64,000 nucleotides of DNA from Paratrimastix pyriformis (Eukaryota; Preaxostyla; Paratrimastigidae). The stretch lies in assembly GCA_027972325.1 (NCBI GenBank), contig JAPMOS010000015.1, positions 633,501 through 697,500 on the forward strand. Reading direction: 5' to 3'. Positions 1-64,000 of this stretch are shown piece by piece (the stretch's first letter is position 1; the number at the start of each line of letters is the position of its first letter). A program made the position numbers and the translations under genes. Below the pieces are notes generated by a model. The model ran no database searches. It was not told the DNA's origin and worked only from the letters and a program-made list of their open reading frames with translations.

Positions 1-3000
1 CCGCCGGGGGAGCGGCCCGGCCAGGTGCCCCCCAGCTCGGAAGGGACCCCGCCCCCGCCCCCCGCCGGCAGCCCCGCCATGCCCCCGAGGCTTCCCGTGG
101 GGCTGCCGTAGGGCGGCGAGAAGGGGCCCTGCGGCCGGTGGCGCGACGCCTGGGGGGGACCCGACCCGGGGGGAGGCCGATCAGGCGCGAGGAGGAGCCG
201 GGGGGGCGGCGATGGCGGGGCAGGGACGGGGGCGGCAGCGGCGGCGGGGGTGGCGGCGGACCAGGGGAGCCCGGTGGGGCACGGTCCCGAGGGGCGTGGC
301 CTCGATGGGGCCCGGGTCGGGCCACCGGTCGGCCGGCTGGGGGCGAGGCTGACCGGTGGGGGCCGCCGCCGTGCGGGGGGGCCGGGCCAGCGGGTCGGCC
401 GAGTGAGGCCGGGCAGGGCTGGGCCTCCGTCCTGCTGCCCCTACGGGGCGGGGCGGCGGCTGGGGGCCGGGTGGCGAGCGCCGCGGTGTGGCGGAGGAGG
501 TCGAGGCAAGCCCCAGCCCCAGCCCCGGCCCCAGGGCCGCGACCGCCCCGGCGCGGTGCCCAGTGCGCCCGCCGTCCGTCGGGGGGGCGGCCCCGTGGGA
601 GTGCGGGTGCAGGGGCTGCTGCGGCTGGGGGCCCGCGGGCGGCCGGCGGGGCAGGGGCTGCGTCCGGACGGGGCGGCTCAGGTCGGGCTGCGAGGCGCGG
701 CCCCGCCGTGGCTGCCCGAGCGGAAGGGGCGTCATGAGCAGCGAGCGGGCGCCCATCCACCCACCGTAGGGAGAGCGGAGGGAAGCGGAGGGAAGCGGAG
801 GGCGGAGGAGCGGAGGGGCGGAGGGCGGAGGCGGAGGAGCGGAGGCGGAGGCCGGCACACACGACGGAGCGGCGGACACGCGGCTGAAGCCACGCGGCAC
901 GAGGGAGCAGAGGTGCCAGCCAGCAGCAAGGGCAGAGGCAGCAAAGGCGAAGGGGGGGGGGGGGGGGGGGGGGCGGGCAGACCCCGTGGTGGAAGCGCTG
1001 CCGGGCGACCCGCTGGAGGGGCCGTGGCGCCGAGGGTGCGGAGGATGTCCTTCAGCCGCTGGGGGGTGATGCTCTCGGGCGAGGTCCCCTCCAGGGTCGC
1101 AAGCTGCGCCCCCGGGCCGACCCGTGATGAGCCACGCCGGGTGGTGGTGGTGGTGGTGGTGGTGGTGGTGGTGGTGGTGGTGGGGGCCGCGGACCTGGGC
1201 CTGCAGGGCGGAGAGCTCGCGGCGCTCCTCGTCTGCGGGGTCGCCCATCATCTCGGGCCCGGCCAGGGCCAGCGGCGGGGCGCCGGCCTCCTCGTCCTCC
1301 ATGGGCGCCCCCTCCCCCTCCTCCTCGGGCCTGCGCCCCACAGCGGGCCGGGCCGGCCCCGCGCGGGCGCTCTGGGGGTGAGGTGGTGGCAGCTGCCGGG
1401 CCGGGGGCAGGCGGGCCGACTGGGGGTGAGCCCGGCGGGCCGGGGCCGGGACCGCGGGGCCGCCGCCGAGGGCCTGCAGGGCCACCCGGACCTCGACGGG
1501 TGAGCCGACGACGGTGGAATCATGTGAGGCCGGCTGGGCGGCCCCCTCACCCCGAGGCGGCGCATCGGCGGGCGAGCCGGCCGGGGTGGGGGCCGAGGGC
1601 TGGTGGCGGCCCTGGCGGGGCGGGGGCAGCTGCTGGGCCAAGAGGCGCTGCCGGAGGGCCCGCTGCTGGGCGGGTGTCAGCAGGCCCTTGAGGGCGGCCC
1701 CCAGCTCGGCCACCTCGGGGCCCTCGCGCTCTGCCGGGGCCGCGGCGGGGGGCGCGCCCTCGGGGGCCTCGAGGATGGCCATCAGCGAGCCCACCAGCGA
1801 GCCCGTCGTCCCGCCGGCCGCCCCCGACGAGGCCGAGGCCTCCGAACGGTGCGGCGACCCAACCGCCCCCCCAGCCCCCGGGATACCCTGCATGCCCGCC
1901 GGCATTCCCTCGGGGGCAGCCAGGGCCGGGGGGAGGGCCTCGGTCGGCGAGGCGGTTGGGGGGGCGAGCTGGGGGGCGCTCGAAAGGGCCGCCGGGTCGG
2001 CCAGGAGGCCGCCCGCTGTGGGCGTGGGCGCCGGGGCCAGGGAGCCCGGGGCGGCGGCGGCCAGGCGGGCGATCATGGTCTGCAGGGCCCCGATCCAGGC
2101 GGCGGGCGGGTCGCTCGGCCGGGGCAGCGGCAGCCGCTCGAGGACGTCCCCTTGGGCGCCCCCGGCCTGCCCACCCGCAACCATCTCCGTCTCCGTGGCG
2201 GCGGTGGTACCGATGCGCCTGCCCATCATCGTGGGCCCCAGGTCGGCCAGGGGGGCTGCGGGGGGGCCCGCCAGCACAAGGCCGGGGCGGCCGGGGGGCG
2301 AGGGCAGCGGGGTCTCGAGGGGCGCCCCGACCGGCTGCGGGGGGCCGCCCGCCAGGAGCCCCTGCTGGGCCGGCCGCGGCGGGGGCTGGGGCGTGGCGCG
2401 GGCGCCTGCCATGGGCGCGGGCCGGGGGGCGGGGGGCGGGGCCGGCGGGGCGGGCGTGATGTCCACCCAGTCGGCCGCGAAGAGGGCAGCCTCGACGGGG
2501 CTCGGGCGGCCCCCGCCCCACAGCCCTGCCACCCGCACGCCCCCATACGCCAAGCAAGAGGATGGCGATGCGAGGTGAGGATGGCGATGCGAGGAGGATG
2601 GCGATGCGAGGTGAGGATGGCGATGCAAAGTGGGACCGCCCGGGGTCGGGGGGGCAGGGTGCGGACCTGGGCCGGGCTCGGGCATCGGGTGTGGGGTGGC
2701 CGGGAGGGGGCGGGGGGGAAGCTGGGCGGGGTGTCCGACGGGGGCCTGGGGCGCCTCGGCCCCTGGGGGTGGCGGGGGTGGAAGGGCCCGGCTGGGCGGC
2801 GGCACGGGCCGGGGGGCGGTCGCAGGCCCCGAGGGGGCGGAGGCAGGGGCAGGGGCGGGGGCGGGGCCCCCAGGGCCCGTGTGTGTGCCGACGGCGAAGA
2901 GGGGGTTGGGCAGGATCCGGCTGCCATCGCCCGGGGGCCCATCGGGGGTCGGGGCTGTCGTCACAGGCGTCGGCCCGGGCCGCGGCGCGGCAGCCGGTTC

Positions 3001-4835
3001 GGAGAGGGCCAAAGGGGAAGTGGTGTTGGTGGCGGGCGGTGGGGTGGTGGAGGGGGTGGGTGCTGGGATGGAGGGCGCCGCGGCTGGCCACGGGGCCACC
3101 AGGGGTGGGGCGGGGGCAGGTGGGGATGAGGGGGAAAGGCCAGCCGAGGCCGGGGGATGGGCCAGCAGCCGGCGGCGGGACGGCGGAGGCGGAGGAGGAG
3201 AAGGCCTGCGGGCTGCCCCCGAGACCGAGAGGGGCCGCAGGCTGCAGCGGCTGGGACAGCGGCTGGGGCGGGACGGGTTGAGGCTCGAGGGCGGCCAGGG
3301 CGGCGAGGAGGCGGGCCAGCATGGCGTCGTGCAGGGCCACCGTGCGGGCGACGAGCCCCAGGGCCGGGTCCCCCAGCAGGGCAGCCTCGGTGCCGTCCCC
3401 CTGGGCCGCCACGTAGCCGTGCCGCTGGGCCCAGGCCCCGAAGAGGGCCAGCCCAGCACGCAGGCACTCCGAACCCGTTCGCTGCAGCTGCAGCCCCCCG
3501 CCCCCAGGCGGGGAAGCGGAGGCCGCGGGGGCCGTGGCTGGGGGCCCCAGGGCCACCTGCATGCGGACGGGAAGCCCCTCGACCAGCAGGAACCGGTGCA
3601 GCCGCGCAGCCAGGGGCCCCAGCCCCGTCCCCGAGGCCTCCTCGCCACGCGGCTCCACACCCCGGGTGGCCCCGTCAAGTGGGGGCGGCTGGCTCGGCCG
3701 GGCATCTGCGAGGTGAGGATGAGGTGTGTGGATGTGGTGGGTGGGGGACGCGAGGTGGGTCACAGCCAACCCGGGGGAGCCCCACCGGCTCGGGGCGCCG
3801 CCCGGTTGAGCCGCGGACCAGGGGGGAGGTAGGGCCCGAGGGTCTCCGTGACGGCCTGCTCCCAGAGGCGCGGCACGCTGACGGCGGCCGGGTTGAGGGA
3901 CGAGAGCCCATCCACCCGGGCCGCCCCGGGCGGGGGCAGCTGCGGGCCGAGCGGAAGCGGCCCCGTCTCGACGGCCAGGGGGCGCGCCTCGGCCAGCAGC
4001 CGCCACAGGGCCTCCATCTTCCGCTGGGCGGCCCCCATGGAGGCCTCGTCGAGCCCGTTCTGCTGGAAGTACGTCTGCCCACCAGCAGCCGCAAGGCAGG
4101 TGCGGGTGGAGGGAGGCGAGGGCAGAGGAGCAGGCGATGAGGTCCCCTCGGAGAGCAGGCCCAGTGGGCCGGCGGTGCGGTGCGGTGGCCGACCTTGAAG
4201 CGGCGCAGTGAGACGCAACCCTGGGTGTGGCCCACCTCGGCGCAGAAGCGGGCCGCCAGCTGGTCGAAGAGGGCCGTCGAGGGGACCGCACCATCGGCCA
4301 CGGGGGCCTGCCCCTCGGCGCCCGCCCGCCCGGCGAGGGAGCGAAGGCCGGCCCGGATGGCGGATGCTGCCCCGGCCAGGGTCACCGGGGCAGGTTGCTG
4401 GCCCGATCCCGTGGAGGAAAGCCAGTCGGCCTCGCCCTCGGGGCAGGCGGCGCCCGGCTCGGTGGGGTCGGGCGAGACCAGGGCAAGCAGCAGGAAGCCC
4501 AGCTCGCCCGCCGTGACGTGGCCCACGCCCGCCGTGTCGAGCATGAAGAACAGGCTCTCCGCCTGGGAGAGCCACCCCGCCGTGAGGCCCTGCTGCACCA
4601 GCACCCGGTTGTGCTCGTTGATCAGCAGGCCCAGCATCACGTCAAGCTCACCCTCGGTGCTGTTCCGCTGTTGGAGCATTTCCAAAAAAGCCCCTTCGCT
4701 GAAGGTGCCTGCCGAGGGCTTGGCCCCGGACGCCTGTTGGAGGCCATACTCGATCCAGCACTGATACATCTTCGAAAACTCCTCGTCTGAAATGGTATTG
4801 GCAATTCGCCATTGAATAACCTTCAGAAAGTTCAC
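1..4835 (-). CDS. EF-hand-like, proline/alanine-rich protein, 3' end outside window
   Basis: Not recognised as a named family. The N-terminal exon (4835 down to about 4200) is helical and holds an EF-hand-like segment, FFMLDTAGVGHVTAGELGFL, with a degenerate loop. After an intron with donor GTCGGC it continues with TYFQQNGLDEASMGAAQRKM (about 4070-3790), then a folded-looking stretch (FLLVEGLPVRMQVALGPP, about 3700-3200), then long Pro/Ala-rich sequence with helical islands such as IGALQTMIARLAAAAPG near 2090 and ESITPQRLKDILRTLG near 1060. Introns carry a TCGCATCGCCATCCTCACC-type repeat (2560-2630), a CAC repeat (1138-1182) and a poly-C run (952-973 on the complement). The open frame at the end runs off position 1. 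No ATG is available at the start: an in-frame TGA lies seven codons upstream and GTG at 4835 is the best candidate. Exon ends in the low-complexity part are approximate. Confidence 0.55.
952..973 (-). repeat. Intronic poly-C (coding-strand sense)
   Basis: 22-nt G run on the plus strand, so C on the coding strand of the first gene. It lies inside a predicted intron with donor GTCTGC, just after PPR. Confidence 0.8.
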
Positions 4836-4997
4836 GACGCCTTCAAGAATGGGTCAGCCGTCAAACAGATGAAAAGAAATTAATTAATTGACAAAAACCA
4901 ATCGAGACCTGCCGCGTCTGTCTTGGGACAGACATCAAAAACAGCTTCCCAATAGATGGAACGAGCCTTTTGTATCCATCTGGTGGTGGGGCCGCTC

Positions 4998-6904
4998 ATG
5001 GCCAGTCACCCGGAAAACACAACGGCCCCGACCGAGTCGCGTAAACCTTTTGGGTTCCTTACCCCTCAGGAAAAACGGAAGGCTGTCTTCACCCAACGCC
5101 AAAGATCCCTGGACACTTGTCTTGGAAACCCTTACGAAGGTTATCATAGAGCAAGAACAAATTGTTCAATGGATTCATAAGCATTTCCCGGGATCGTATC
5201 CATCCACACAAAACCCCGCCTTTTGTTCGCCTTCCTGCCCTTCTCTCCAATCGTCAGATATTGACATTTTACAGAGGATTAATGATTCCGTCCATCCGCC
5301 ACAAACTGTACAGGATTCTGTTGCTCCCCCCCAACCCCCCTCACAAATTTTCGGCCCGAGGCAGTTCCCGCCATCCGTTTTCGCCCCTCCGGAGCAACCC
5401 GCGACCACTCCTTGGCATCCAGCACCGGTTCGATATCAAGGGACACCTGGCTCGGCCATCGCACAGCAACCAGAGGAGCGCACAGCCTCGCCCCAACGGG
5501 CCCGTGAACGGCACCTGTGCACCCTCTGCCACGTCTACACGACAAGCATGGAAGGGTTCAAGCAGCACCTCGCTGGAAAGGGACACGTCTCCGCCCTCAA
5601 GGTCCGACCGAAACCGAGCCCCGACCCTCCTCTCATGTCGCGCTGCTCTGGTGCAGAAAGCCGCCGTTTCGGTGCTGCCGGGGAGCCACGCCGACCACAA
5701 CCGGCACCACCAACTCGTCGTCGGTCCCCCCTCGACCGCCGAGGATCCGCCTTCTTGTGACTCGCGGTTTGCCCTGAGGCGCCATGTGCTGCTGCCTCCC
5801 CCACCCGCAGCGCGGTCGTCGGCCCCGGACCCGCCCGCGACCGCACCAACCTCCCCGTCTTCACCCCCCGCTCGGATTCCTGTCCGTTTGAGGCACTCCA
5901 ATCTTCCCGCACGTCATCCCGACGAGAGTGGACCCCGCCCTCCTCCGAAGACGCCTCCTCAGCCGCATCCTCAGCCGCATCCTCAACCACATCCTCGACC
6001 ACATCCTGCCCTCCGCACCACGGGTCCCTCCCCCCAGCCACCTCACCAGCCGCCTCACCAGCCACCTCACCAGCCACCTCACCAGCCACCTCACCAGCCA
6101 CCTCACCAGCCACCTCACCAGCCGCCTCACCAGCCGCCTCACCAGCCGCCTCACCAGCCGCCTCACCAGCCACCTCACCAGACTGGGCAACCATCTGTTG
6201 CCGCCGTGCACCCCCCGAACCCCAAACGAGGGTCGTTACCACCTTCATCGGCCCACGCCATGTTGGTTGGGCTGACTGCCCGTGGCCGGGCCTCCCGGGG
6301 ACGGGGTCGAGGGGGCCGTGGACGGGGGGGCACCTTTGGGCACGCTCCGCCACCGCCACCGCCACCGCCACCATCCCCCCCACAGCCAGCGGGGAACCTC
6401 ATTCCGATTCCGGGCACCGCAGGCCCCCAAAGGGACCTCGGGGCTCCACCCAGCCGGGCAACCCTCGGCCCCGCCGGATCGCCGCCACCGCCACGCTCCT
6501 CGCCCGTCCCGACGGCGTCGCCGGGTGTCTCCTTCCTGAGCACCCTCCAGGCCCTCTGCGCCCAGCCGCCAACGCCCCCTCCCCGCGAGAAAGCCCAAGA
6601 CACGGCGAAAGGTGTGGAGCGCCCACCCGCCACCACCGCAGCCGAATCGGCCGAGCTCGCCGAAGGACCCGCGGTTCCGGCTCTGGCTCTGCCTCCACCC
6701 CTGATGGCCCGCTCGGGCCGCAAGCATCTCCGTGGGCCCCAGTTGGCCGAGGGAGAGGCCGCCGATGCGGGCAGCAAGCGCGCCAAGGATGACGCTCTTT
6801 CGGGTCATGCCGGCCGTGCCCAGGCCTCCTCGGATGGCGGCGACGGGGCCGATCGGATGGCGCCGTCTGTGCCGCGCCCCACCCACCTCCACCTCAGCTG
6901 TTAA
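4998..6904 (+). CDS. C2H2 (U1-type) zinc-finger, proline/RGG-rich protein
   Basis: Exon 1 starts at ATG 4998 (an in-frame ATG at 4956 is the alternative) and ends at KRKA. A 55-bp intron (5085-5139, donor GTCTTC) joins it in frame to VIIEQEQIVQWIHKHFPGS. The second exon ends in a zinc finger, LCTLCHVYTTSMEGFKQHLA followed by GKGH, with the long Cys2-to-His2 spacing of matrin/U1-type fingers that often bind RNA or splicing factors. The next donor is GTCCGA at 5602 and the likely acceptor is near 5661. The remaining frame is open to the TAA at 6902-6904. It encodes a (HQPP)n repeat at 6030-6180 (possibly instead intronic), an RG-rich patch (SRGRGRGGRGRGG) and a basic tail. A role in RNA processing is inference from the finger type and RG content. 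No named orthologue recognised. Confidence 0.6.
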
Positions 6905-6992
6905 GGGTCATCGCTGACTGACGTCCACCTCCCCTGTTTGGGATGTCCACCTCCCCTGTTTGTGATGTCCGTGCGGTGGCGTCTTGGGCAGG

Positions 6993-10646: not shown

Positions 10647-10747
10647 AAGATTTTTGAAGATCATCTCCAAGAGTCTGGGGGAAAGTGGCAGAGGCCTCTC
10701 CCCTGCTCCGAAGGGAAACTGGTTTCAAATCCGCAATCTCCCCGGTG

Positions 10748-12103: not shown

Positions 12104-12480
12104 TTAAATCGAAGAAGACTGGGGGTTGGAGGGGTTGGAGGGGTTTGCCTTCATGGGGTTGTGCCTCAGCAGGTACGCTGCCACATACTCGACCGGATCG
12201 GCAGGACTGCAAATCGGGGAGATGTGGAAAGGGCGGAGAAGAGGCTCCAGACCGCTCGCGAACAAGCGCAGAAAGGGCTTGAAGGAGCAAAGGCACAACA
12301 GTCTGGTCGAGATAGGCACGAATCGGAAGCGCCTGAACATCAATTTTGCTGTTGAGAGTGAATGAGGCGTTCTCGGCCGAGGCACCCTGTAGAAGGGGAA
12401 AAATATTAGACGAATAGGAATCTGGGGAACACACAAACCTCGGGCTTCTCCTGCTGTGGTGGGGGCTGTTGCTGGTCCAT
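12104..12480 (-). CDS. DPY30: DPY30-domain protein
   Basis: A 92-residue protein in three exons. A Gln/Pro-rich start ([14 protein letters not shown]) is followed by the Dpy-30 dimerisation motif, [20 protein letters not shown], and then the helix [15 protein letters not shown]. In the family this four-helix bundle docks amphipathic helices of ASH2L in SET1/MLL histone H3K4 methyltransferase complexes, and related RIIa/Dpy-30 proteins sit in flagellar radial spokes. Both roles are open here. Intron donors are GTTTGT and GTCTGG. Length is close to human DPY30 (99 residues) and the motif is complete. The start codon is only 50 bp from the proposed start of the divergent MYCBPAP gene. Confidence 0.93.
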
Positions 12481-16597: not shown

Positions 16598-16684
<87 letters not shown>

Positions 16685-18506: not shown

Positions 18507-18507
<1 letters not shown>

Positions 18508-27027: not shown

Positions 27028-28178
27028 ATGGACTCTTGGGAATCACGCTCCCTTCCTCCTTTTGTGGAGGGTCTGTTTTGTGGCCCTCTTTTTTTCACTC
27101 AAAACAATCCGCCGAAAATAAACCTCTCCGCCCAATTCCTTGTAGCCGCGTCGAAATTGCAAGGGCGCCCTGTCGTTGACATTATTTTGAAAACTATCAA
27201 CCACCCGAACATCTTCGTTTTCGGTGAGATGCTTGACCTGCCACAAGTCCAGGAGGTTTGTATTTTTTTTAAAGTTATTTCGGGCTCAATTCTGTTCCTG
27301 CCAGCTCGGCGCGAATGCTGAGACCAAGCCCTATCTTAATCTTCTCGAGCTCTTCGCCTACGGAACATACGGAGAGTTCATGACCAATCGTGCTAACTAT
27401 CCCAGCCTTACACCTCCCCAAATCGCCAAGCTCCAAATGCTCACTCTCGTTGATCTTGCCAACAAGCAAAAGGTTTGTCGCGACAACTCGAGACCCGCTG
27501 ACCGCACTGCGGCCGCATTTGGGCAATTCCTTAGACTATTCTCTACTCGGCACTGACCCGAGAGCTGGGGATTGACAGTGTCCGACAGATCGAGGACATG
27601 ATCATTGAATGCACCTATAAGGGTCTCATTCGCGGCAAGATTGACCAGAGGAACCAGCGCCTCACTATCCAGTTCGCCATTGGTCGGGATGTTCGCCCTG
27701 CGCAGCTGCCCCCCATGATTGCAACTCTGCAGTCTTGGTCTGTCCCGCCTTTCCGCCCCTCGGGTGATTATGTGTTTTTGGCGGGTAGGGTCCACGCCTC
27801 GGAGGAATTCCTGAAGAAAATCGAGGAGCAGCTCAAGTCGGTGGACATCTCCCGGCAGCAGCGCGGCAAGCACGACCAGGACCTGAAGACCCAGCTGGAC
27901 GAGATGAAGACCCGGGTCCGCTTCCAGATGGAGGAAGAGGAGATGGCCGCCGTCGCAGCGGCTACGGGGGGCGGGGGGCGGGCAGGGATGGAGGGCCTCG
28001 AGTTCGAAGGTGACGGCGATGAGCGCCGGTCTGTCCGCCTGCCTCTTTTGTCCCTCTCGTCCGCCTGCCTTTTTTTTTTTTTTTTTTTTTTTGCCCCCAC
28101 CACGGCCCTCCCTTCTCGTTCTCATGCCTCCTCTCTTGCCTCGCACCCGCCAGTCGTGGGGGCCGCCGTCATCGGTAA
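27028..28178 (+). CDS. COPS7: COP9 signalosome subunit 7
   Basis: Five exons traced by hand (27028-27255, 27305-27472, 27535-27737, 27789-28028, 28154-28178) give 287 residues; human COPS7A has 275. Conserved landmarks: NIFVFGEMLDLPQVQE, LLELFAYGTYGEFM, then the PCI winged helix with RELGIDSVRQIEDMIIECTY, GLIRGKIDQRNQRLTIQF and AIGRDV. A long C-terminal helix follows and the last, very short exon gives a basic RRRGGRRHR end, as in animal CSN7. CSN7 is a PCI subunit of the complex that removes Nedd8 from cullins. The four donors are GTTTGT, GTTTGT, GTCTGT and GTCTGT; the last intron contains a 24-nt poly-T run. The stop is 131 bp from the convergent TM2-like gene. Confidence 0.95.
28069..28092 (+). 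repeat. Intronic poly-T in CSN7
   Basis: 24-nt T run in the last CSN7 intron (28029-28153). It is the only pure T run of this size in the window. Confidence 0.85.
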
Positions 28179-31305: not shown

Positions 31306-39375
<8,070 letters not shown>

Positions 39376-48971: not shown

Positions 48972-48991
48972 CCGCTGCCAACAACCGGCGA

Positions 48992-49125: not shown

Positions 49126-49158
49126 AGTTCGGTGCAGATGTGGCGGGGGGGCTCGTCG

Positions 49159-50722: not shown

Positions 50723-51472
50723 ATGCAGCCCGACACGCCGCCGCCGCCGCCGCCGCCGCCCTCACCTCCAACCTCTGCCGAAACTGCCGCTGATACATTC
50801 GCCTGTAACATTTGTTTGGATACTGCCCATGAGCCTGTCATCACAGTTTGCGGTCATTTATTCTGTTGGGAGTGCATCTACCAATGGTTTCAGCGGCAAA
50901 CAGCCGAGGGAGCCACTACAACATGTCCTGTGTGTAAAGCAGGAATCAGTCAAGAGAAGGTTTGCCTTTTTGCAGGAAGATCCGATGGTTGATTGTTTTC
51001 TAGCTGGTTCCTCTTTATGGTCGGGGCAGTGAGCAACGCGATCCGCGAACGCCCGACCTACCTGAACGACCTCGCGCCCAGAGGCCACCCGAACCATCCC
51101 GCCAACAGCATATGGTCCGCGGGCTGTCGGAGCCACAACCCCCCGAATTAATAGCCCTTTGGTTGGTGGTCTTCGTGCAGCACCGAATGCCGGGCATCCA
51201 AGTGAATGTTGGTGTCAACTTTGGGGGGTTGCGACCGACGCCATTCGGCTTCCAGTACACATTTCCCCAGGCCCCACCACCAGGTCGGTCTTGTCCCCCT
51301 TGCATCGACGATGTTCTCACCCCTCGCCGGGTTGCTGTGGGTTGCTGGGTTGGACACGGCAGCGGCAGGAAGCCCTCAGGCGGTGGAAGAGGCACGGCGA
51401 AAAGCGCTCTTTCGGCGACTAACAGTCTTCTTGCTGTTCATGGTCTTCTTCTTGATGATGCGGCTCATCTAG
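50723..51472 (+). CDS. RNF5: RNF5/RNF185-type membrane RING E3 ligase
   Basis: An ER-associated ubiquitin ligase family that acts in protein quality control. A Pro-rich start ([16 protein letters not shown]) leads into a C3HC4 [49 protein letters not shown]. After a 44-bp intron (donor GTTTGC) the text continues [17 protein letters not shown], the diagnostic motif following the RING in RNF5/RNF185. A Gly/Phe-rich stretch ([17 protein letters not shown]) follows, and the C-terminus is a single membrane helix, [20 protein letters not shown], that ends at the stop. All expected parts are present. Confidence 0.94.
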
Positions 51473-51802: not shown

Positions 51803-52708
51803 TCACTGATAGGCATAGGTGGCCTTGCAGTGCATCACCAACGTGTCACCCACGAAGTAAAAAGAGTCCGAGCGAGTCTCGTGCGGGTGTGCCACCATTT
51901 GTTGCACTGAGGAGGATGTTGAGTGGCGGCCAAAATGAAGGAAGAATCAGACCCAGGTCCGCGGGGAGTGGGGGTACATCATAGATGACTTCCCAAGAAT
52001 TGGTCGATGAAGGAATTACAAAACCAAAAGTAAAATCGTAGCTTGGGAAACAAAGCACAAGCGTGATTGCAGGGATGGGACCGGCAGACCTCCGAATCAA
52101 CTGGTTGCGGAAATAATGGCGCTCAATCATGCGGAAATTTTCCAGGGGCTGAGGGCCCACAGAGAACTTCAGAGCCGTACCAATGTTTTTGGAATGAAGG
52201 AATTCGCGAGGGAACGTGTATTGAATGAGTCGTCCCGTGGGGTCGCAGCGGGCAATCCCAACTTGGGCGATCTTGGGGTCCTGAGCGACCTCAAAATAGA
52301 CACTACAATCGGAGGGCGAGAAGGAGCGCGCGTCAGATATTGATGAAGGTGCTGACGGCGAAGGTCGTCCGGGCACTGGGATTGCTTGCCAAGAACGGAC
52401 CGTTTTGTGTCCATGTCGCGAATCTTGAAATGCAGGAAATTGAGACCCACGGTGTTAGCTTCGATGGGGCAAAGATAATCTGGATGGGAGAGGGAAATCG
52501 GCAACGGTTCGAGGTAAACATATTAAAAGCTCCATGGGTGCATCAAACGTCACAAACCGCTGGTGTACCCAGGAAGGCGAAGGACATTTTCGGGTGTCGG
52601 GGATGGGCGGGCGCCAGCGACTGGGTGTGCCGAAGCAGTCGACGAAGCGCGAGCAGAGGCGGACGCTGCCGCAACAGCGGGTTTCGCAGCAGTTGGCTTG
52701 GAGCTCAT
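51803..52708 (-). CDS. UNC119: UNC119 lipid-binding chaperone
   Basis: Five exons traced by hand (52558-52708, 52401-52479, 52090-52302, 51953-52041, 51803-51906) give 211 residues; human UNC119 has 240. The protein sequesters N-myristoylated cargo and delivers it to cilia on ARL3 release. Landmarks match along the full immunoglobulin-like fold: [104 protein letters not shown] and the end [12 protein letters not shown]. All four donors are of the unusual GTYYG type: GTTTGT, GTCCGT, GTCTGC, GTCTGA. The family strongly supports each junction, so this gene is the best single proof of that splice-site rule. Confidence 0.96.
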
Positions 52709-52728
52709 TTTATGTTTTCAAAGAAAGA

Positions 52729-53486: not shown

Positions 53487-56022
53487 ATGATCCGGGCAGC
53501 GAGTGGATCAGGGGAACGGTTTGAGGCGGTTCGGGTTGTCGGGCGTGTTCGTCCGATGTCAGAGGTCTCCTTGCTTTCCACATTGCCAGCCGATCGGTTT
53601 TCACTCGCCCACAGGCTGAGAAGGAACGAAACGAGATTCAGGCAATCACTGTTACCGGAAACTCCTTGGAGGTCTTGTTGTTATTTTGTGGTGGTTGACG
53701 CCACTTTCACCCTCCCTGCAGATCATGGTCCCCAATGTTGGGGCTGCCCCACCCAGCGCTGGTGGGAGCGGGGCCGCAATGCAAAAGGGCAACAAACAAA
53801 TTGTGCCCGACTTTGCTGTGCACCGGTTTACGATGGCCCACCTGTTCGGCGAGGAGACCACCCAGGAGCAGCTCTTCGCCCAGTGCGGCGTGACCAACCT
53901 CCTCGAGGGGGCCCTGCTCGGTGGGTCCGCCACGCCTCCCGTCGCACAGGGCTGCCTTCCCCTGCGCCCCAACGCCCGGTAGGAAATCCTCTGCTCTGTC
54001 CGCTGGCTCTGGGTGCCGCTTGCCTGTTGCCTGTTGCCTGTTGCCTGTTGCCTGTTGTCTGTTGCCTGTTGCCTGTTGCCTGTTGCCTGTTGCAGCTACT
54101 CCTCGACGGTCTTTGCCTACGGGCAGACGGGCAGCGGGAAGACCTTCACCATGCTCGGCGGGGCCTTTGACGGTTCGCACTCTTTCTGCTCCTTCCGCTC
54201 CCTCGCCGCTGCCCTTCCCCAAGAAGCTCGCCGCCCTCCCGTTCCCCTTCTCACCCATGGCTGGCCGCGCTGCGGGTGCCGGCGGCCCGACATCATCCAG
54301 ATGCGGAGGGAACCCGAGTCAGCGAAAGCGCGGCCAGCCACCGGAACGACGGGATTGCGCCCCGGAGCGTGGAGTACCTGTACATGTTGATGGGCCAGCA
54401 CCCCGAGCTGCGCTTCACCCTGCACGCGAGCTTCCTGGAGATCTACAACGAGCAGGTCCATGACCTCCTCCGGCCCCCGCCCCGGGAGCCCCTCGAGCTG
54501 CGCCAGGTCTCTGGGGGACCCAATGCCCTTTTCTACGCGCCCCAGCTGACGCACGTCGAGTGTACCTGCCCCGAGGATACCATGGCCGTCCTGGAGGAAG
54601 GTTCGTCCCCCGCCTGGCCCGCGACCCGCGACCGCGACTCATGCATCTTTTCCCCCCCAATGCAAACGAAGGCTCCCGCAATCGGCGTGTGGCCTCGCAT
54701 TGCTTGAACCAGTCCGCCAGCCGCCCTCGCCCCTTCTGCCCTGCCCACCCGCGACCCCCCCCCCCCCCCCCCCCCCCCCAGCCTCATTGCCACCATTCCG
54801 ACCCTCGGCTGCCCCGGATAGGGACTCCTCCCGCTCACACGCGATCTTCACGCTGATCATGAACGCCACCGACATGGCCGCGGGTACCACGAGGAGAGGC
54901 AAGATCGCATTCGTGGATCTCGCCGGTCCGCGCCGCGCCCCCTGCCACGCCACGCCACGCCACGCCACGCCACGCCACGCCACGCCACGCCACGCCACGC
55001 CACGCCACGCCACGCCACGCCCCGGTCCCGCACCGCACCGCACCGCACCGCACCGCACCGCATCGGTCCCGAACGCGCTCACCCTCATGATGCCTGGACA
55101 GGGAGCGAGCGGCTCAAGGAGAGCATGTCTGAGGGGGTCACCATCAAGGAGACGGTCAACATCAACCGGTCCCTCTTCGCCCTCGGTCTGCGCCCCCAGG
55201 CTACCACGACCCCCATGGCACCACGCACCCCTGGCATGCCCGCTGGCCGTGGCCGTGCTTTCCTCTGACGCGGCCTTGTTGGGCGGGGTCGGGCGGGCGG
55301 GAGTGCAGGGAAGGTCATCCAGTACCTGTCCGACCAGCGGGGCCACATCCCCTACCGCGACTCGAAGCTGACCAAGCTCCTCATGGACACCCTCGGCGGC
55401 TCCGCCCGCGCGCTCATGGTTCGTCCGTCTCGGCCGCACCCATTGTACTGCCGCCAACTGCCATGCCGCTCTCTGCCCCGGACCCTCATCCGCATTTCCG
55501 TTCTGTGCTCCACCACCCGTCCGGCTGCAGATTGCCTGCCTGACGCCCTCCATGCGGCACGCCTTCGTGACGTTGAGCACGTTGCACGTCTGTCGGCCCT
55601 CGCCCTCGCCCTCGCCCTCGCCCTCGCCATCCATCGCCCTCAGGCTGCGCATCGGGTGGGCGGGCGGGCGAGCGAGCGGGCGGGCGGGCGGGCGGGCGGG
55701 CGGGCGGGCGGGCGGGCGGGCGGGCGGGCGGGCGGGCGGGCGGGCGGGCGGGATACCGTTCGCCCGAATGGGCTTCCTCTCAGGGCCCCGCCCGGCTGCT
55801 CATCCGCCGGGCGCCTTGTTGACCTGCCCGTTTGCTCATCCGCCGGGCGCCTTGTCTGCATGCGGGGGTCCAGTATGCCAACCGGGTTCAGTCCATCCGC
55901 AACCGGCCCGTCTCGTACGTGAGCGAGCAGAAGGTGGTCGCGACCCAGCTGCGGGACGAGATCAAGAACCTGCGCGCCGAGATTGAGTATTGGCGCTCCA
56001 TCGCCGCGGGGTCCGTCCTCGC

Positions 56023-56061
<39 letters not shown>

Positions 56062-58122
56062 GCCAGCCAGCAAGGCTTTGGCCGGTGGCAGGTCAGCCTC
56101 ATCGAAACTCATCGGTGCCCCACCGCCGCCCCCAGGCACACGCCCCCCACCACACCAGGCTCGGTCAAACCCCCGTCCAGCGCATCCTCCTTCTACAGCC
56201 GCTCCAGCCGGAGCCTCTTCTCGCAGGGCAGCAGCGCGGGCGGCTCGCTCATCGACGGGGAGCCCGTCCCGGGCGGCGGGGCGGCCGAGGAGAAGGCCGA
56301 GCAGATGCGGCAGGTCCGCGTCGCGCCAGCTCTGAGTCTCACCATCTGTCTCCGCCCTGCCCTGCCCTGCCCTGCCCTGCCCTGCCCTGCCCTGCCCTGC
56401 CCTGCCCTGCCCTGCCCTGCCCTGCCCTGCCCTGCCCTGCCCTGCCCTGCCCTGCCCTGCCCTGCCCTGCCATGCCATGCCATGCCATGCCATGCCATGC
56501 CATGCCATGCCCTGCCCTGCCCTGCCCTGCCATGTCCTGCCCTGCCATGCCATGCCATGCCATGCCATGCCTGCCCTGCCATGCCATGCCCTGCCCTGCC
56601 ATGCCCTGCCCTGCCATGTCCTGCCCTGCCATGTCCTGCCATGTCCTGCCCTGCCATGCCATGCCCTGCCCTGCCCTGCCCTGCCGGTGCTCATCCCATG
56701 TCTCATTGCATGCCTCGTGGCGGCCGGGCAGGTCATCGAGCGGCTGCGGCTGGAGAACAACGAGGCCACCAAAACCTTGCAGAACCTGCGGGCCGAGCTG
56801 CAGGCCCATAACGCGGAGCTGTCCGTCCAGCATCGACGCAAGAGGCCCGTGCCCCACCCACCCTGCCTGCCCCCGCCCCTGCCCGTCCCCCGCCCCTGCC
56901 CGCCCCCCGCCACCGGCTCCCGTCGCCCCGGCTGGTGCCACAGTCTGTTCTGTTCCTCCCTCGGGGCGCGCAGTCTGGCGGACGCCTCTCTGTCGGCCGT
57001 CGGGCCGGCCTTCTACACGGCCAGCGCAGGACCCTCCTCGTCGGGCGCCGCTTCGAGCCCCCTCCCCTTCCCTTCCCCACCCACCACTCTCCTTCCTTGC
57101 GCCCACGGCCCACCCCGACCCCGGTCGCCCTCGTCCCCTTCCTCGGCCTCGGCAGTCCCTCCGACCCTCTCGTCCCGGCTGCGGGGCCTCCGGGGCCCCC
57201 TCGCGTCGCCCCTCCATCCACCCGCCCCCATCCCGCGCACGCTACCGCCCCTCGCAGCATATTCGCGCCCAGCCGGCGGCTCGGCGTCCGTGAGCCCGCC
57301 CCCCCCGGGCCCGGCCAACTCGTACGCGGCCGCCCACATGGCCCAGTCGGCGGCCCAGTCGGCGGCCCAGTCGGCCCACCGGCGGGGCGGCCGGGCCCGA
57401 TCGGGCTCCCTGTCGAGCAGCCCCGTGGCCGCCGCGGGAATCTCGGCCGCAGCCGCGGCAGCCGAGGCCATGCTCGCGGCCATGGGCTCCCCCACGCCCC
57501 CCGACCGCCAGAGGTCCGTTGCGCCTGTCGCCTGTGGGACCTCGCGCTGCCGCCTGCGCACCCGGATGTCGCTCATCACCTCGGCTTCATCGTGGGCGGG
57601 GCGCCCCCTGGTTGGTTGGGTCATCGTACGGGGGCACCTGGTTGGTTGGGCAGCGGCGCTCTGGAGTGGGAAGGTCAACCGCCCGATGGCGATGATACGG
57701 CCTCGCTCTCATCCTCGGGGGCCGAGATGAGCCTCGCTTCGCAGGCGCGGCGAAGACGCTCGCTGCCCGGCCGCCTGGGCGCCCACCCTGCCCCTGCCGC
57801 GGCGGCCTCGTCCCCCGGGGTGGGTTCGGGCCTGGGCAGCCCGTCTAGCCTGACCGGCGCCAGCAGCACCGAGGAGCAGGAGAACAGCCCCGCCATCTTG
57901 GTGCGGCGCTCTCGGGCTTCGCCCTCGGTGCTCGTCTTCGCCCCCCCGCGGCCGCCCCCGGGGGCAGGGGCAGGGACAGGGACAGGGACAGGGACAGGGG
58001 TCGGGCTCGCTCCGGCCGATGCTGAGGCCGCCTCGCGGGGCGACCCGATGCCCGCCCCCGCCCAGCGGCCGTTTCGTATGCGCCCTCGCGTCTCAGCAGC
58101 CCCCGTGCCTCAAGTGGGCTGA
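53487..58122 (+). CDS. Kinesin motor protein, KIF12-like
   Basis: A plus-strand kinesin split by many introns. Motor landmarks: [12 protein letters not shown] (beta-1), [18 protein letters not shown] (P-loop, about 54,110), [41 protein letters not shown] (switch I, split by a poly-C intron), [17 protein letters not shown] (switch II, split by a CACGC-repeat intron), [55 protein letters not shown] coiled coil follows the neck ([35 protein letters not shown]), then a Ser/Pro/Gly-rich tail to the stop at 58122. The [14 protein letters not shown] and TLSTLHYANRV blocks resemble KIF12, but the subfamily needs a tree. All eight motor-domain junctions after the P-loop exon start with GTYYG or GTTCG. 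Introns contain TTGCCTG, CACGC, GGGC, CCTGTC and CCTGC/CATGC repeats. Confidence 0.9.
54020..54094 (+). repeat. (TTGCCTG)n heptamer intron repeat
   Basis: About ten copies in the kinesin intron immediately before [12 protein letters not shown]. Confidence 0.9.
54755..54779 (+). repeat. Intronic poly-C in the kinesin gene
   Basis: 25-nt C run in the intron that splits the switch I motif (CLNQ|DSSRSH). Confidence 0.9.
54948..55065 (+). repeat. (CACGC)n and (ACCGC)n intron repeats
   Basis: Adjacent pentamer arrays in the intron that splits switch II (DLAG|SERL). The second array differs from the first by single-base changes. Confidence 0.9.
55672..55752 (+). repeat. (GGGC)n intron repeat
   Basis: Tetranucleotide array, about 20 copies, in the kinesin intron between TLSTLH and YANRV. 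It is one of the few G-rich arrays on a coding strand. Confidence 0.9.
56354..56690 (+). repeat. (CCCTG)n grading into (CCATG)n intron repeat
   Basis: About 335 bp of pentamers in the kinesin intron before [11 protein letters not shown]. Blocks of CCCTG and CCATG alternate, which suggests expansion and gene conversion of mutated units. Confidence 0.9.
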
Positions 58123-58589: not shown

Positions 58590-60495
58590 TCATGGGGGGC
58601 TCTGCGGCCGCGGCCGCGGCTGCGAGGACGATCCTGCCGATGTGGGGTGCTGCTGTGCATCGGGGCCCCCATCGGCGGGGCATCGGGGCAGGGCCAACAG
58701 CATCTCGGCGACCTGCTGACGGCAGTGCTCGCTGGTGGCCTTGTACTCGGCTGCCGCCTGGAAATCCTCGGCCGCAGCGGCCTGGCGGATGTCCGATCGC
58801 AGCTGGGCCAGTCGCTCTGTGGCCGTGTGGGAGGGGGGGGGAGGGGGAGGGAGCACCAATCGCGCTGAGTCTGTATCCAGAGAAAGAAGCGGTGGCAGCG
58901 TCAGGTGGTGGCGAGTGGCGGCGGTCCTTGGCCCTCGGCCGACTCGGTGCCTGCTTGGCTGCTGGCGGGGGGCCGAGGGACGGACGGACCAGCTTCGGCG
59001 TAGATGGGAGCCACCAACGCCCGGAGCCGGGCCGCCTCCTCGTATGCTTCCCGTGCCACGGCCGCCTCTTTGGCCGCCTCGATCCCCTCCAGGCGGCGTT
59101 GCAGGACAGGGGCCGCCTCAAGCAGCTGGGGCCCAGCCGCCGGCAGCGACCCGCCGGAGGACTCGCCCGATGGAGGCGAGTTTCCGCTCGCCGCCCCTGA
59201 GGTTTGCCCCGTGGGCCCCACGGGCTTGGACAACGCGAGTGTCTGGAAAAGGTGCCCCACTCGTGCTGGGCCCGCAGATCATCAAGCGGTGAACGAGGAC
59301 AGTAATCCCGGCAGACCTTTGGCTGCTTCGCTGAGGATGTCTCGCGTGCCGGGGGAGCTGGGGGGACTCGCCGGATAGGATGCAGCGAGCCAGCTGTTGG
59401 CCTGGGCTCGGAGCTGCCGCGCTTGGTCGAGCAGACCCTCCAGGGCGCCCACCAAGGCACCACAGTTCTCAAGCCAGCCCGCGGCGGCCGCGGGGCTGGC
59501 TGCTGTTCCCGGAGCGGCCGGGCAGCCAGGGGTGGACGTGAGCCCCGGCGGTGCGGTGCGGATGGGTGGCGAACCGAGTGCGGTCCTGCTGCTCGGTCCG
59601 CCATTGAGCGGAGGCCGAGGGAGGTGTTCCCGCTCGGGCAGCAGGGAGTACGACTCGAGCACGCGGGATCCCGGGTCGCCGCCCCGACCACGATCGACGG
59701 GCGATGTCGGCGAGGCATGGCGAAGGCGCTTGATTTGGGGCATGCAACAAGCTCCGGGCGCCATGGGATGATCTTCTGGTGGCCGGCCGCCCTCGATTGC
59801 AGCCGCCGGAACCGACGTGGCGGCAGCAGTGGGGCCTGAGCCACCGCTCGCATAGATCGCCCTGAGGACGGGGAAGGGCACACGGCAATAATCGAGGCCG
59901 ATGTCGCGTGCCAGCCAGGGACAATGTTCCACGAATGCTCGCGCCCCGCGCTCCCCGATGGGGTTTTCGCTGAGGTCGAGCTCCAGGGGCGGCCCGCCGG
60001 TCGGTCGGCCAGCCAGCTGCAACCCGCACCAGCCGTGAAATTCAGGAACAGGGTGGGGGGTGCCTGCGGACCGCCCGAGCGAGAGTGGTGGCTCCTTCGT
60101 CGCCAACAAAGTTATGACAGAGCTTCAGGTTTTCAACGTAGGGAAGGAGGGGAAGGAGTAGCTCCATGGAATGATCATCAAGGGAAGTAAAACTGAGGTT
60201 CAAGTATCTGATATGCTTCCCGGTTTGTGCTTCAAATCTGGAAATCGCCTGGACGAGCAATTCGAGCTGGCTTTGAATGAAGGGAAACTTGAGCTAATCG
60301 AAAAGAGGTGGTGGCTGGAGGGTCAGACCTAGCCCCACATATTTTCGACTGCGCATCGAGATATTCGCTGCCTGATCGTGGGCTGGCTACACGATCGCAA
60401 AACTGCCTGAACAAGGCACCCTCGTTCTCTGTCATGTCAGTCGATAGCACACGGGGTGTTACTGGTAGAATCGGGCCGTTGAACAATTCATACAT
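58590..60495 (-). CDS. Leucine-rich-repeat protein with C-terminal UVR-like helices
   Basis: Starts MYELFNGPILPVTPRVLST. Exon 2 and 3 encode ribonuclease-inhibitor-type LRRs: HIRYLNLSFTSLDDHSMELL, VENLKLCHNFVGDEGATTLA, LELDLSENPIGERGARAFVE. The 66-bp intron between the last two has donor GTCCGC and restores a perfect repeat (TLARA|LAGRPTGG). A Ser/Pro-rich linker follows, then helical segments LEGIEAAKEAAVAREAYEEA and RSDIRQAAAAEDFQAAAEYK that look like UVR-type helical hairpins. LRR proteins of this kind are common in flagellar complexes, but function here is unknown. Its ATG lies 11 bp from the proposed start of the divergent gene. Confidence 0.72.
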
Positions 60496-60506
60496 ATTTT
60501 GCAATC
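60496..60506. promoter_or_regulatory. 11-bp spacer between two divergent proposed starts
   Basis: Only ATTTTGCAATC separates the minus-strand ATG (60493-60495) from the proposed plus-strand GTG (60507). If both are right, both leaders overlap the opposite coding region. The AT-rich zone 60,100-60,800 around it probably contains both promoters. Confidence 0.3.
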
Positions 60507-63500
60507 GTGGCCGTCGCCTTCCATATCGCAGGGCGTTCTGATTGCCCAAGGCTGGCAAAGGTTTTTTTCTTTTTGACCATTTTGTTGCCCATTCCTGTCT
60601 TCTAGGCTGAGCACATTGCGCAGCATCTTGTTGGAAATCTGCCACACATCCACGTTGAGTACCACATCAAACTTCCCGAAGAGTGGGATGCATATATTTT
60701 CGAAAAGAACCGACTTCTTGGCTTTGTTCACAAGGATTCGCCGACGATCTGGGAAGAGGGTCGCCTGGTGGGTGGCCTGAAGGAGTGGGAAGAGCTTGTC
60801 TGCTCGTCTGCTCTTTTTTGGTCATTTTTCTGTCAGGTCGCCGAGCGGTATGGCTACCGGGACGAGCGACCCGTGGAGGAGTTTGCCCATGTCGCCGCGG
60901 AGACCCACGCCCAACTGCTGGAGGACAGAGAGCAGGCCAAAATCGAGGTTCGTTGGCCATCAAGACGCTTGATCTCACCCATTCCTGGGGTGGGGCGCTG
61001 CGTCTCGCCAGGTGCAGGCCGCCTGGCTGGCGGAGGTCGTGGTCCAGGAGGCGGCCCACTATCGAGCCCTCGCAGAGGCGGCGCGGGAGGCTTACAAGGC
61101 AGGGCTGCAAATGCAGCCTGCCCTCCGGCAGCTGACGGCTGACCTGCGGGCAGGGCAGTTTCTCTCGCGGACCGTGCTCGACCTGCTGGGCCGCATCGAC
61201 CGGGCCCAGCAGTGGCTCTACATCTCCCCCAAGCTGCGCGCGCTTCTCCTCCAGCGGGAGGCCCTTCGCAAGCAACCAATCCCTCCGCCCACCGCCCGCG
61301 GCGACATCCTCGTGGGCGATGCTCCAGTGGCCACACCCCATGGCGAGGGCGGTGACGACGCCGAGGGAGGTCTGCCTCCTGCCGGCCACCGGGGCTCGTG
61401 CTGACCGGCCGTCTGGGCTGGGCTGGGCTGGGCTGGGCTGGGCTGGGCTAGCTCCCATGCGTTCGGCCCGGGCCTCGAGCGGCAAGCCCCCCGTTGCGGG
61501 ACCGCAAGTGCCCGGGGCGTCCCAGGCCGCTGAGCACCCCACCACCCCCGCTGCTAGTGGGGCGGCTGCTCCACCGGCCCCGGCCCCGGCCCCACCCACA
61601 GGTGCCGTCCCGACCGCGGCCCCTGTCAACCCTGCCCCCCGTGTGGCGGGGAAGCCCGCTATCCGGAAGCCGCTATCCGGGCGCCGCCGCGAGGAGGAAG
61701 AGGCCAAGGCACTCGCCGCCGCGGCTGCCCGACGTGCAGAGGCCGCGAAAAAGGCCGCGGAAGAGGCCAAGGTTTGCTGGCCCATGTTGGCTTCATCCCC
61801 CAGGTGCCGCACGCACACGCTCGCGCACACGCACACCACCGTACGCGCACGCACACGGGCACTCCGACCACACATTGGCCGTGTGTCTTGTCATGCCATT
61901 GATACGCGCATTGGCACACGACTGGCGCACCCACTGACACATCTGGTCTGGGACCCCGGGACACCACCCACAGAAGGAGCGTGAACGCCTCGACGCCGAG
62001 ACGAAGCGCATCCAGGGTATGCAGCGGCAGGCCGCGGTTTATGTGGCCCAGGTCTGTCCCGCCCCTCGTGGGGTCCCTCTGTCCATCCGCCCCCGCGGGC
62101 TTCTGGTCCCACTGGATCGCCTTCCTTGCCCTAACCCTAACCCTGGCGCCTTGCCCGATCGATTCTCGTAGCTGGCTGCCCTGGCCGCCCGGGTCGAGGG
62201 GCTCCTCGAAAAGGAGCGCGCCGCCCCGGCCCCTCTGGGCCCAGATGCCGCCGCTCCGGCCCCCGTTGCCGAGGTGCTGCGAACCCTCCGCGGCCACGTG
62301 ACGCAGGTCGGTCGGCCGCACATTGGCATCATCTGACGTCCCACTGCCTCCCGAACCCTCATCCTCCCCTCTGGTCCCTGGCCCCTGGACTCTTCTCTGG
62401 GCGATGGGGACCAGATTCGGGAATTTCTGAGGGCCCGCGTCGGCTCGCTCCCGCAGCTCGGGCTTCCGCCGGCCTCGGTGAGCTTCACCACTCCTCCGCC
62501 CCCTCCCGGTATCGTCCCGCCACCCCCGCCGCCTCGCCGCCCCCCGCCGCCTCGCCCACCCTCGTGGGGGCGGCCACCCAACCGGCCCCTGCTTCCGCTG
62601 CCTTGCCTCCGGCACCGAGCCCTGTCCCCTCTGGCCCCTCTGTGGGGGGCGAGAGACCCCCCCGTGTGGCGCCTCTCAACCTCTCCAAGGAGCCGACCCC
62701 AAGCCCCCGCCCCGAATCGGCGGGTACCACCCGGCCAAGCAGCGCCAGCGCTGGCCCGCTGGCCTCACTGCCGGCCGAGCTGGAGCTCCCCCAGGGCGCC
62801 CCGCCTCCAACGAGCACCCCCGGGCGGTCCGCCTTCGAGCAGTGGGACCGCGCCCTGGCCGAGGCCCTCCGCTGGGCCCAGGCCGAGCAGACCCGCTGGA
62901 CGGCCCTCGAGCGGGCCCTCGTCGCCACGGCTGCCAGCCCCATGCCCCTCGGCCACGAGATCGGCCGCGACCTCTACGACCCGGCCGGCCTCGCCATCGA
63001 GGAGGCCTCCGAAGCCGACCGGAAACGGAAGGCCGCAGCCGCCCGGGGCGATGACCCCGAACCCGAGCCCGAACCCGAACCCGAGCCCGAGCCCGAGTCC
63101 GAGCCCACCGACGAGAACGGGGACCCCTTGAGCGAGGAGGCCCTGGCCGCACACCTTGCTCAGAAGGCCGCCGAGAAGTCTGACAGCCCAGCCCCCTTCC
63201 CTCTCTTCCCTCCCTTCCCTCCCTTCTGCCCGTCAGGTGGGCAGCCCCAGGGCAGTGTCCTGACCTGCCCTTGGTGGGCTGGGCCCTTGTCTGGTCGGAC
63301 GCGGCACTGCGTAGGGCGGCCCAGCAAGCGGCCCAGGAGGAGGCAGCCCGGGCCGCAGCCGAGGCAGCCCAGCGGGCCCGCGACCAGCAGACCCTGGGCA
63401 CCCGGCTGGGGTGGCTCGACCGGCGCCTGGCCGAGGCGGCCCAGACTCTGCGTTCGCTCGACTGGCTCGGCCCCGTCTACCAGGGGCGTCAGGCCCAGTG

Positions 63501-63651
63501 CCCCGATGCCGGTCTGCAGCCCCACCCGTGCCCCCCCTGGCTCACGTATCGACCCAACCCCACAGCAACGCTGGGCCTGCAAGCCTTCGCCCCTGAGATG
63601 GCGCAATGGCGCAACCGCAGTGCCGAGCTCTGGCCCCTCCCTGTGCCGTAA
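60507..63651 (+). CDS. Protein with MDH1B-type thioredoxin-like N-domain and long helical tail
   Basis: The N-terminus matches the thioredoxin/glutaredoxin-like domain found before malate dehydrogenase in animal MDH1B: FHIAGRSDCPRLAK|AEHIAQ, PHIHVEYHIKLPEEWDAYIF, KDSPTIWEEGRLVGGLKEWE. No dehydrogenase follows. Instead there are helices (VQAAWLAEVVVQEAAHYRAL, LLGRIDRAQQWLYISPKLRA), an Ala/Pro linker, a charged coiled coil (RRREEEEAKALAAAAARRAE), proline runs, ALAEALRWAQAEQTRWTALE and LGWLDRRLAEAAQTLRSLDW, ending ELWPLPVP at 63651. Clear introns: GTTTTT (60,561), GTCTGC, GTTCGT, GTTTGC, GTCTGT, GTCGGT. No ATG exists between an upstream in-frame TGA and the conserved AGRSDCP; GTG 60507 fits the length of MDH1B. 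Middle exon structure is approximate, and a break into two genes near 61,400 cannot be excluded. Confidence 0.62.
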
Positions 63652-63726
63652 GTTCGAAAAAAAAAATCGGGCGAACCATTCTCTTCGGCTGTGCTGGCGT
63701 GGGGCGGGGTGGGGCGGGTGGGGTGG

Positions 63727-64000
63727 TCACTGAGGGGTCTCGGGTTTCTGTTGCTTGCGGGACCTTGGCCGATCGCGGGCGCTTTTGCTGTGAGACGGTC
63801 GCGGTTCGGCCGAAGCAGTGGAGGGGCGGCCGCGCGTCGGGGCCTCCTGCTCGCCCTGCTCGGACCTGGACCGCTCGTCGGCGTCCTCCTCGTTCTCGTC
63901 AGCGCCCTCCTCGTCCTCGTCAGCGCCATCCTCCTCGTCGGCCGGGGCGGCCGCAGGGGCCAGCGGCTTGGGCTGCTCGGGGTCGGGCACCTCGGGGCCC
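63727..64000 (-). CDS. C-terminal end of an acidic, low-complexity protein (partial)
   Basis: An open frame entering from the right edge and ending at TGA 63727. It reads PDPEQPKPLAPAAAPADEED, then acidic repeats (GADEDEEGADENEEDADE) and a basic end (SKSARDRPRSRKQQKPETPQ). The acidic-then-basic layout is common in nuclear or histone-binding proteins, but there is no family evidence. The gene continues beyond the window. It is convergent with the preceding gene, 75 bp stop to stop. Confidence 0.55.
   Translation of the reverse strand, partial: GPEVPDPEQPKPLAPAAAPADEEDGADEDEEGADENEEDADERSRSEQGEQEAPTRGRPSTASAEPRPSHSKSARDRPRSRKQQKPETPQ

Follow-up and report, generated by a model that had tools for sequence, protein, structure and literature searches.

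In a stretch of 64,000 nucleotides from Paratrimastix pyriformis (Preaxostyla; Paratrimastigidae; GenBank assembly GCA_027972325.1, contig JAPMOS010000015.1, positions 633,501 to 697,500; hereafter the window), introns of unrelated genes begin with 5' splice sites (donors) of the form GTYYG, with a pyrimidine at intron position +3. We have confirmed this donor pattern within the window and beyond it. The cause of the donor shift is very probably a change in U1 small nuclear RNA (snRNA), since the eight U1 genes found in the assembly have the 5' end AUACAGACCU where AUACUUACCU is standard. We consider it highly likely, on a case built as a whole from the genome sequence, that GT...AG introns of the major class are spliced by a U1 changed from AUACUUACCU to AUACAGACCU and that their donors have moved from AG|GURAGU to G|GUCYGY. 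This would probably be a natural, genome-wide recoding of the 5' splice site, in which a two-base change in U1 is matched by nearly all donors, both pseudouridine sites of U1 are lost, and U6, U1-70K, METTL16 and SNRNP27K are in place.

Results

U1 genes with a changed 5' end

Searching the assembly with the Rfam U1 model yielded eight U1 loci, each a full-length match (model positions 1-166; 50.8-60.2 bits; E 1.1e-12 to 5.6e-10). Positions 5-6 of the RNA are AG in place of UU in 8/8 genes; the ACUUACC 5' end of canonical U1 is found in none of them, all eight reading ACAGACC. The stem-I loop GATCAC is kept in 8/8. The genes are near-identical while their flanks differ, with six copies 0-6 positions off the copy L003. 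The original prediction had argued that pairing with the window's donors calls either for an altered 5' end of U1 or for reliance on U6 or proteins, and AUACAGACCU in 8/8 genes supports the former. The U6 genes, which it had proposed to read as well, carry a standard ACAGAGA box in 4/4. None of the U1 and U6 places found by family search is on the contig of the window, and the window itself holds no Rfam match at or above a family's gathering score.

No canonical U1 copy was found by the family search or by a pattern scan of the assembly. With positions 5-6 left free, the scan gave ten matches, namely the eight U1 genes (AG) and two with GG in a tandem repeat (reversed control, 1), and no TT copy, although a copy with a differing stem-I loop would escape it.

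The motif CCCATAA stands at -59/-60 of each of the eight U1 genes and at -66/-67 of each of the four U6 genes, where a TATA-like box follows at -32. This spacing predicts a U1 start at AUAC, and the U1 genes are presumably transcribed. The U1-gene flanks hold 70 GTCYGY words against 34.8 expected (GTRAGT, 15 against 11.5), an excess that ties the contigs of the U1 genes to the same splicing system.

Donors beyond the window

Donor statistics were taken from 198 introns called in kinesin genes, of which 70 are well supported by the protein alignment. In these 70, position +3 is C in 65, U in three and G in two, so that the +3 pyrimidine of the original prediction holds for 68/70 here as it does for all 16 aligned introns of the window. 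The C excess over intron base composition is pronounced (P = 2e-22). Position +4 is C in 43, U in 20, G in seven and A in none; +5 is G in 62; +6 is C in 40, U in 26, G in three and A in one. The last exon base (-1) is G in 52; at -2, A is seen 30 times and C 27 times, and the consensus G|GUCYGY allows A or C there. GTYYG begins 55/70 well-supported donors vs 223/2601 unchosen GT sites of the same kinesin genes; for GTRAG the counts are 0/70 vs 28/2601. Over all 198 called introns, +3 is a pyrimidine in 177, GTYYG occurs in 128, and the GURAG consensus in two. A standard U1 5' end together with a standard donor logo, which the original prediction had named as refuting it, was not observed in the genes studied.

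It could be objected that such donors are gene-modelling artefacts in GC-rich, repeat-rich sequence. A total of 128/198 kinesin introns fall below the support filter, and many of these are poorly aligned and look wrong; when the donor dinucleotide was freed and AG kept, GT began only 113/212 of all introns. In that same free mode, however, 69/70 well-supported donors landed on the identical base, a rerun that checks placement and not GT itself, since the 70 had been picked with GT required. For 61/70 there is no alternative in-frame GT within nine bases, and among these +3 is C in 56 and GTYYG is present in 48. Unrelated genes agree in the pattern, and the donor words are also in excess when no gene model is used, which makes the objection hardly tenable. 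In 223,659 bases, GTCTGT was counted 250 times against 80.9 expected (3.1-fold; rank 3 of 256 GTNNNN words by excess), GTCCGC 267 against 158.3, GTCCGT 152 against 77.8 and GTCTGC 198 against 122.5. The simple-repeat words GTGTGT and GTGGTG outrank GTCTGT, and GTATGT is also in excess (65 against 32.2, rank 19); GTAAGT (9 against 10.3) and GTGAGT (68 against 72.7) show no excess in these bases.

Base composition has some influence on the donor. C occupies +4 and +6 in 66% and 71% of the higher-GC half of introns vs 57% and 43% of the lower-GC half, and U at these positions makes up 37% and 51% in the lower half vs 20% and 23% in the higher, in line with mutation pressure. That GC-rich mutation pressure alone made the donors C-rich, with recognition unchanged, is nevertheless scarcely credible. 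Such pressure acting with a canonical U1 would favour G at +3, which wobbles with U and is seen in 2/70; C at +3 still reaches 89% among the lower-GC introns, and U1 itself has changed.

The remaining intron signal looks ordinary, save for a weak pyrimidine tract. Acceptors are YAG in 70/70 (AG being required by the aligner). Two words are in excess, in small counts, close to the 3' end of the longer introns: CTGAC, with 5 occurrences (0.43 expected), and TGACC, with 6 (0.6 expected). The last ~45 bases of kinesin introns show no clear polypyrimidine tract and are mostly G and C; GGGGG occurs 53 times before the acceptors against 7.7 expected, overlapping words in runs being counted. Minor introns, whose U12-type donor is RUAUCC, were considered and set aside, as GTATCC is found in 0/70 donors; AT donors were not sought.

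Predicted pairing between U1 and the donor

In the standard register, U1 C8, A7, G6, A5, C4 and A3 lie opposite donor positions +1 to +6. At +3, 68/70 donors would pair with the organism's own U1 (65 by Watson-Crick pairs with G6), whereas 2/70 would pair with a canonical U1, by wobble; at +4 the corresponding values are 20/70 and, again by wobble, 7/70. Among the 16 dinucleotides at U1 5-6, with the other bases of the organism's 11-base U1 end held constant, UU gave the weakest mean duplex energy (-3.15 kcal/mol) and AG the second strongest (-7.14 kcal/mol). The donor predicted from AG at these positions is AG|GUCUGU. U is scarce at +3, in introns with 23% T, yet frequent at +4 and +6; this would follow from the position of +3 opposite G6, as no such scarcity is expected opposite A.

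For the donor GUCCGC the original prediction had given the complement GCGGAC. The G at U1 position 6 came out as anticipated, but position 5 is A and not the implied G, and A5 suits U, the less frequent base at +4, but not the prevailing C. We infer that C at +4, opposite A5 in U1 and an A in U6, is tolerated as an A-C mismatch or wobble under GC pressure; a modified A such as inosine is a possible explanation. We also considered a second type of U1 carrying GG at 5-6, a better fit to C at +4, and rejected it: the two ATACGGACCT matches (contig C14) fall within a single tandem repeat that lacks a U1 body.

Splicing proteins

The U1-70K gene (L124) matches a human RRM sequence entered by hand, at 77% identity across 64 residues, and the donors of its five introns (GTCTGG, GTCCGT, GTCCGT, GTCCGG and GTCTGT) are all GTCYG. 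A search of the assembly with the Pfam family of the U1-70K N-terminus gave no match, nor did its controls; the N-terminal part is intron-split. A METTL16-family gene (PF05971, positions 166-272 of 299) and an SNRNP27K-family gene (PF08648, positions 19-47 of 56) both match above the curated cut-off, with NPPF and QYMNRKG readable, respectively; donors of the latter gene, set by eye, are GTCTGC and GTCGGG. On these matches at the level of the family, we rejected the idea that A is avoided at +4 because METTL16 or SNRNP27K has been lost, and the avoidance appears unlike the loss route of Saccharomycotina.

Weighing the role of U1

Several observations weigh against a U1 that has changed and still directs splicing. 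All eight U1 matches lie under the Rfam gathering score (best 60.2 vs 69.5). The CCCATAA element is not specific to snRNA genes, as its 14-base form CCCATAATTTTTCC has 219 exact copies assembly-wide (reversed control, 0); it may serve promoters more generally or be a repeat. The minimum-energy fold pairs the U1 5' end with the Sm region, so that Sm proteins would need to keep the two apart. C at +4 (43/70) is above intron composition (P = 6e-5) and unpaired with A5, and GG at U1 5-6 gives the strongest duplex of all (-10.59 kcal/mol) and fits the donors better than AG. Finally, U1-C was not found by a zinc-finger family search, from which an intron-split copy of its 38-residue domain could escape; the only zf-U1 match (G000:C86:24809-24943; L079/L125) reads like a protein that we take to be WBP4.

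The low scores would suit a second view of the eight loci, as U1 pseudogenes or paralogues beside a working canonical U1 that is outside the assembly or too divergent. So would the scoring of 41 out of 992 first-look candidates and the state of one copy (L008; G000:C24:520094-520250), in which one base is added and the Sm region is altered (CAGAAUG) and which is possibly a decaying gene. Its 5' end is that of the other copies, however, and this end is identical in all eight genes while other positions vary; the scan with positions 5-6 free holds no TT copy (one with another stem-I loop would escape), and a canonical U1 would leave 68/70 donors unpaired at +3. We hold this view to be very unlikely.

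U1 could also be a minor player, with donors chosen mainly by proteins and by U6, whose ACAGAGA would pair with U-G-U at +4 to +6, as has been proposed for Entamoeba; the change in U1 would then have drifted in later. U6 is standard here and accounts for Y-G-Y at +4 to +6 equally well as U1, and both the failure to find U1-C and the C at +4 that U1 leaves unpaired fit such a scheme. The U6 ACAGA pairing as usually drawn stops short of +3, though, and C at +3 (65/70) is the strongest intronic donor signal after G+1 and U+2 and complements the changed base of U1, which counts against a leading role for U6. A decayed U1 is likewise hard to reconcile with eight near-identical genes that share a promoter-like element at constant spacing, and with the conservation of U1-70K. 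We regard donor choice led by U6 as improbable.

The explanation that we favour remains a changed U1 whose pairing appears to drive donor choice. With G6 and A5, this U1 would select G|GUCYGY donors first, using the pairs G6-C(+3), A5-U(+4), C4-G(+5) and A3-U(+6). Once it has left, Y-G-Y at +4 to +6 would pass to the unchanged ACAGAGA box of U6, whose letters facing these positions, A-C-A, are also those of the changed U1.

Introns of the window and side observations

Spliced alignment recovered 16 introns in window genes (kinesin 7, UNC119 4, DPY30 1, RNF5 1 and CSN7 3; Table 1). GTYYG, the form first described for these donors, is present in 15/16, the departure being UNC119 intron 2, aligned at GTTCTT. 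The GTCCGT originally read for this intron sits four bases upstream in the transcript and, given the gapped alignment, is equally possible as the donor. Three kinesin donors were set by eye (GTCTCC, GTCTTG and GTCCGC). The fourth CSN7, first DPY30 and second RNF5 donors of the original prediction were not recovered by spliced alignment, for which the queries were short.

Table 1 Introns of window genes, in window positions
Intron	Position	Strand	Donor	Remarks	Basis
Kinesin	53925..54095	+	GTCCGC	GG|GTCCGC; acceptor GCAG	Exons placed by eye on kinesin homology and frame
Kinesin	54173..54318	+	GTTCGC	Acceptor end uncertain	Spliced alignment to C. elegans OSM-3 motor domain
Kinesin	54601..54671	+	GTTCGT		Spliced alignment
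Kinesin	54712..54821	+	GTCCGC	NQDSSRSH restored over junction (by eye)	Spliced alignment
Kinesin	54926..55101	+	GTCCGC	Interrupts DLAG^SER (by eye)	Spliced alignment
Kinesin	55186..55308	+	GTCTGC		Spliced alignment
Kinesin	55419..55530	+	GTTCGT		Spliced alignment
Kinesin	55588..55873	+	GTCTGT		Spliced alignment
CSN7	27256..27304	+	GTTTGT		Spliced alignment
CSN7	27473..27534	+	GTTTGT		Spliced alignment
CSN7	27738..27788	+	GTCTGT		Spliced alignment
RNF5	50960..51003	+	GTTTGC		Spliced alignment
DPY30	12207..12252	-	GTCTGG		Spliced alignment
UNC119 intron 1	52480..52557	-	GTTTGT		Spliced alignment
UNC119 intron 2	52272..52396	-	GTTCTT (aligned)	Boundary uncertain	Spliced alignment, gapped
UNC119 intron 3	52042..52089	-	GTCTGC		Spliced alignment
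UNC119 intron 4	51907..51952	-	GTCTGA		Spliced alignment

GC content across the window ranges from 57 to 80% in 4-kb steps, and long simple tandem repeats were seen by eye in or near introns of window genes (window positions 55680-55760, 56350-56690 and 33100-33190). Copies of CCCATAATTTTTCC occur, for example, at L126-L129 and at C58:31480-32160; one piece that was read is a tandem array with units of ~65 bases, and no Rfam match was found in the four pieces read.

Possible relatives of the U1 genes in viral (8) and prokaryotic (34) collections were rejected as chance matches. Positions 5-6 are scattered among them (AG 2/42, TT 5/42), and 13/42 run against Rfam gave no U1 match, the other 29 being judged by eye. 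Three IMG/VR contigs (L081, L083 and L088), retrieved as chance pattern matches, carry Type-P5 twister ribozyme matches.

Methods

The window corresponds to G000:C57:633501-697500 in our numbering of an assembly of 56.06 Mb in 495 contigs. Introns were called with a custom protein-to-genome spliced aligner that required a GT donor and an AG acceptor and left positions +3 to +6 unscored. The kinesin set comprised 26 genes, namely 25 loci, mostly the strongest of 135 exon matches, and the window gene. Three kinesins from the Protein Data Bank (PDB) served as references, and the C. elegans OSM-3 motor domain was used for the window gene. Kinesin introns were filtered by flank scores (protein match on both sides) and length, which 70/198 passed. 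The UNC119, DPY30, RNF5 and CSN7 query proteins were short and were entered by hand. The search with the Rfam U1 model was assembly-wide, with 41/992 first-look candidates scored. The U1 pattern scan used ATACNNACCT, 14-20 free bases and GATCA, with positions 5-6 free and a reversed control. Words were counted without recourse to homology in the window, at the loci of the kinesins and snRNAs and in a small number of other pieces, and expectations were taken from an order-2 Markov model.

Discussion

The 5' end of U1 is regarded as among the most conserved eukaryotic RNA sequences, and its pseudouridine sites are positions 5 and 6. With AG at these positions, the two sites are gone. Human and yeast U1 carry pseudouridines at two adjacent U residues, according to the accessible part of PMC3510501, and the sections seen of PMC10581693 place a pseudouridine at position 5. 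The present system resembles the canonical pairing of U1 with GURAGU in the U1 model match, the GATCAC stem-I loop, U1-70K, the pairing register, the GT...YAG introns and the ACAGAGA of U6; it differs in having AG and not UU at U1 5-6, CY and not RA at donor +3/+4, and no pseudouridine sites.

Switches between A and U at donor +4 have been surveyed, reportedly by Parker and colleagues. In PMC10581693, as far as its text was accessible, ACUUACC is invariant wherever U1 was found (227/230 Saccharomycotina and 9/10 outgroups; 236/240 in total), the title links the Saccharomycotina +4 switch to METTL16 and SNRNP27K, and a change of U1 position 5 to A is considered as a possible +4 compensation and not found. 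On that partial view, donor +4 departs from A in both cases, whereas U1 is invariant there and changed here at positions 5 and 6, with both protein families matched.

The original prediction held that nearly all known eukaryotes prefer a purine at +3. A pyrimidine there is indeed rare, but not unprecedented: the available portion of PMC6085484 gives Entamoeba histolytica donors as GUUUGUU and describes U1 snRNA as absent, which speaks for choice led by U6. Both organisms, so far as that portion tells, have a +3 pyrimidine and U at +4, and CSN7 and UNC119 of the window also use GTTTGT; the difference is that U1 genes matching the donors are present here. Giardia U1 keeps the ACUUAC recognition sequence (PMC3510501, in excerpt), as do two nucleomorphs, among which B. 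natans has introns without a donor motif beyond GU (PMC6461891, likewise in excerpt). To judge from these excerpts, they share with P. pyriformis a divergent or reduced U1 in a unicellular eukaryote, with the recognition sequence kept there and changed here. Engineered suppressor U1 snRNAs, in which the 5' end is altered to match altered donors, are laboratory-made and act at single sites. The same matching is seen here, in a natural and genome-wide form.

In the open-licence PMC literature, as far as its text was accessible and with most subscription papers lying outside it, we found no natural U1 described as departing from ACUUAC at its 5' end, which is weak evidence of absence. Such a change might be expected to be out of reach, since thousands of donors would need to follow it. 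If our explanation is true, the match between ACUUAC and GURAGU is open to evolutionary change, and caution is advisable with gene predictors and snRNA searches built on it. Lineages like Entamoeba may have undergone the same recoding, and U1 searches there may have failed by assuming a canonical end. P. pyriformis would provide a natural separation of the demands that U1 (+3) and U6 (+4 to +6) place on the donor, and both the stepwise rewriting of a splice code and the distinction between positions read by U1 and by U6 would become testable.

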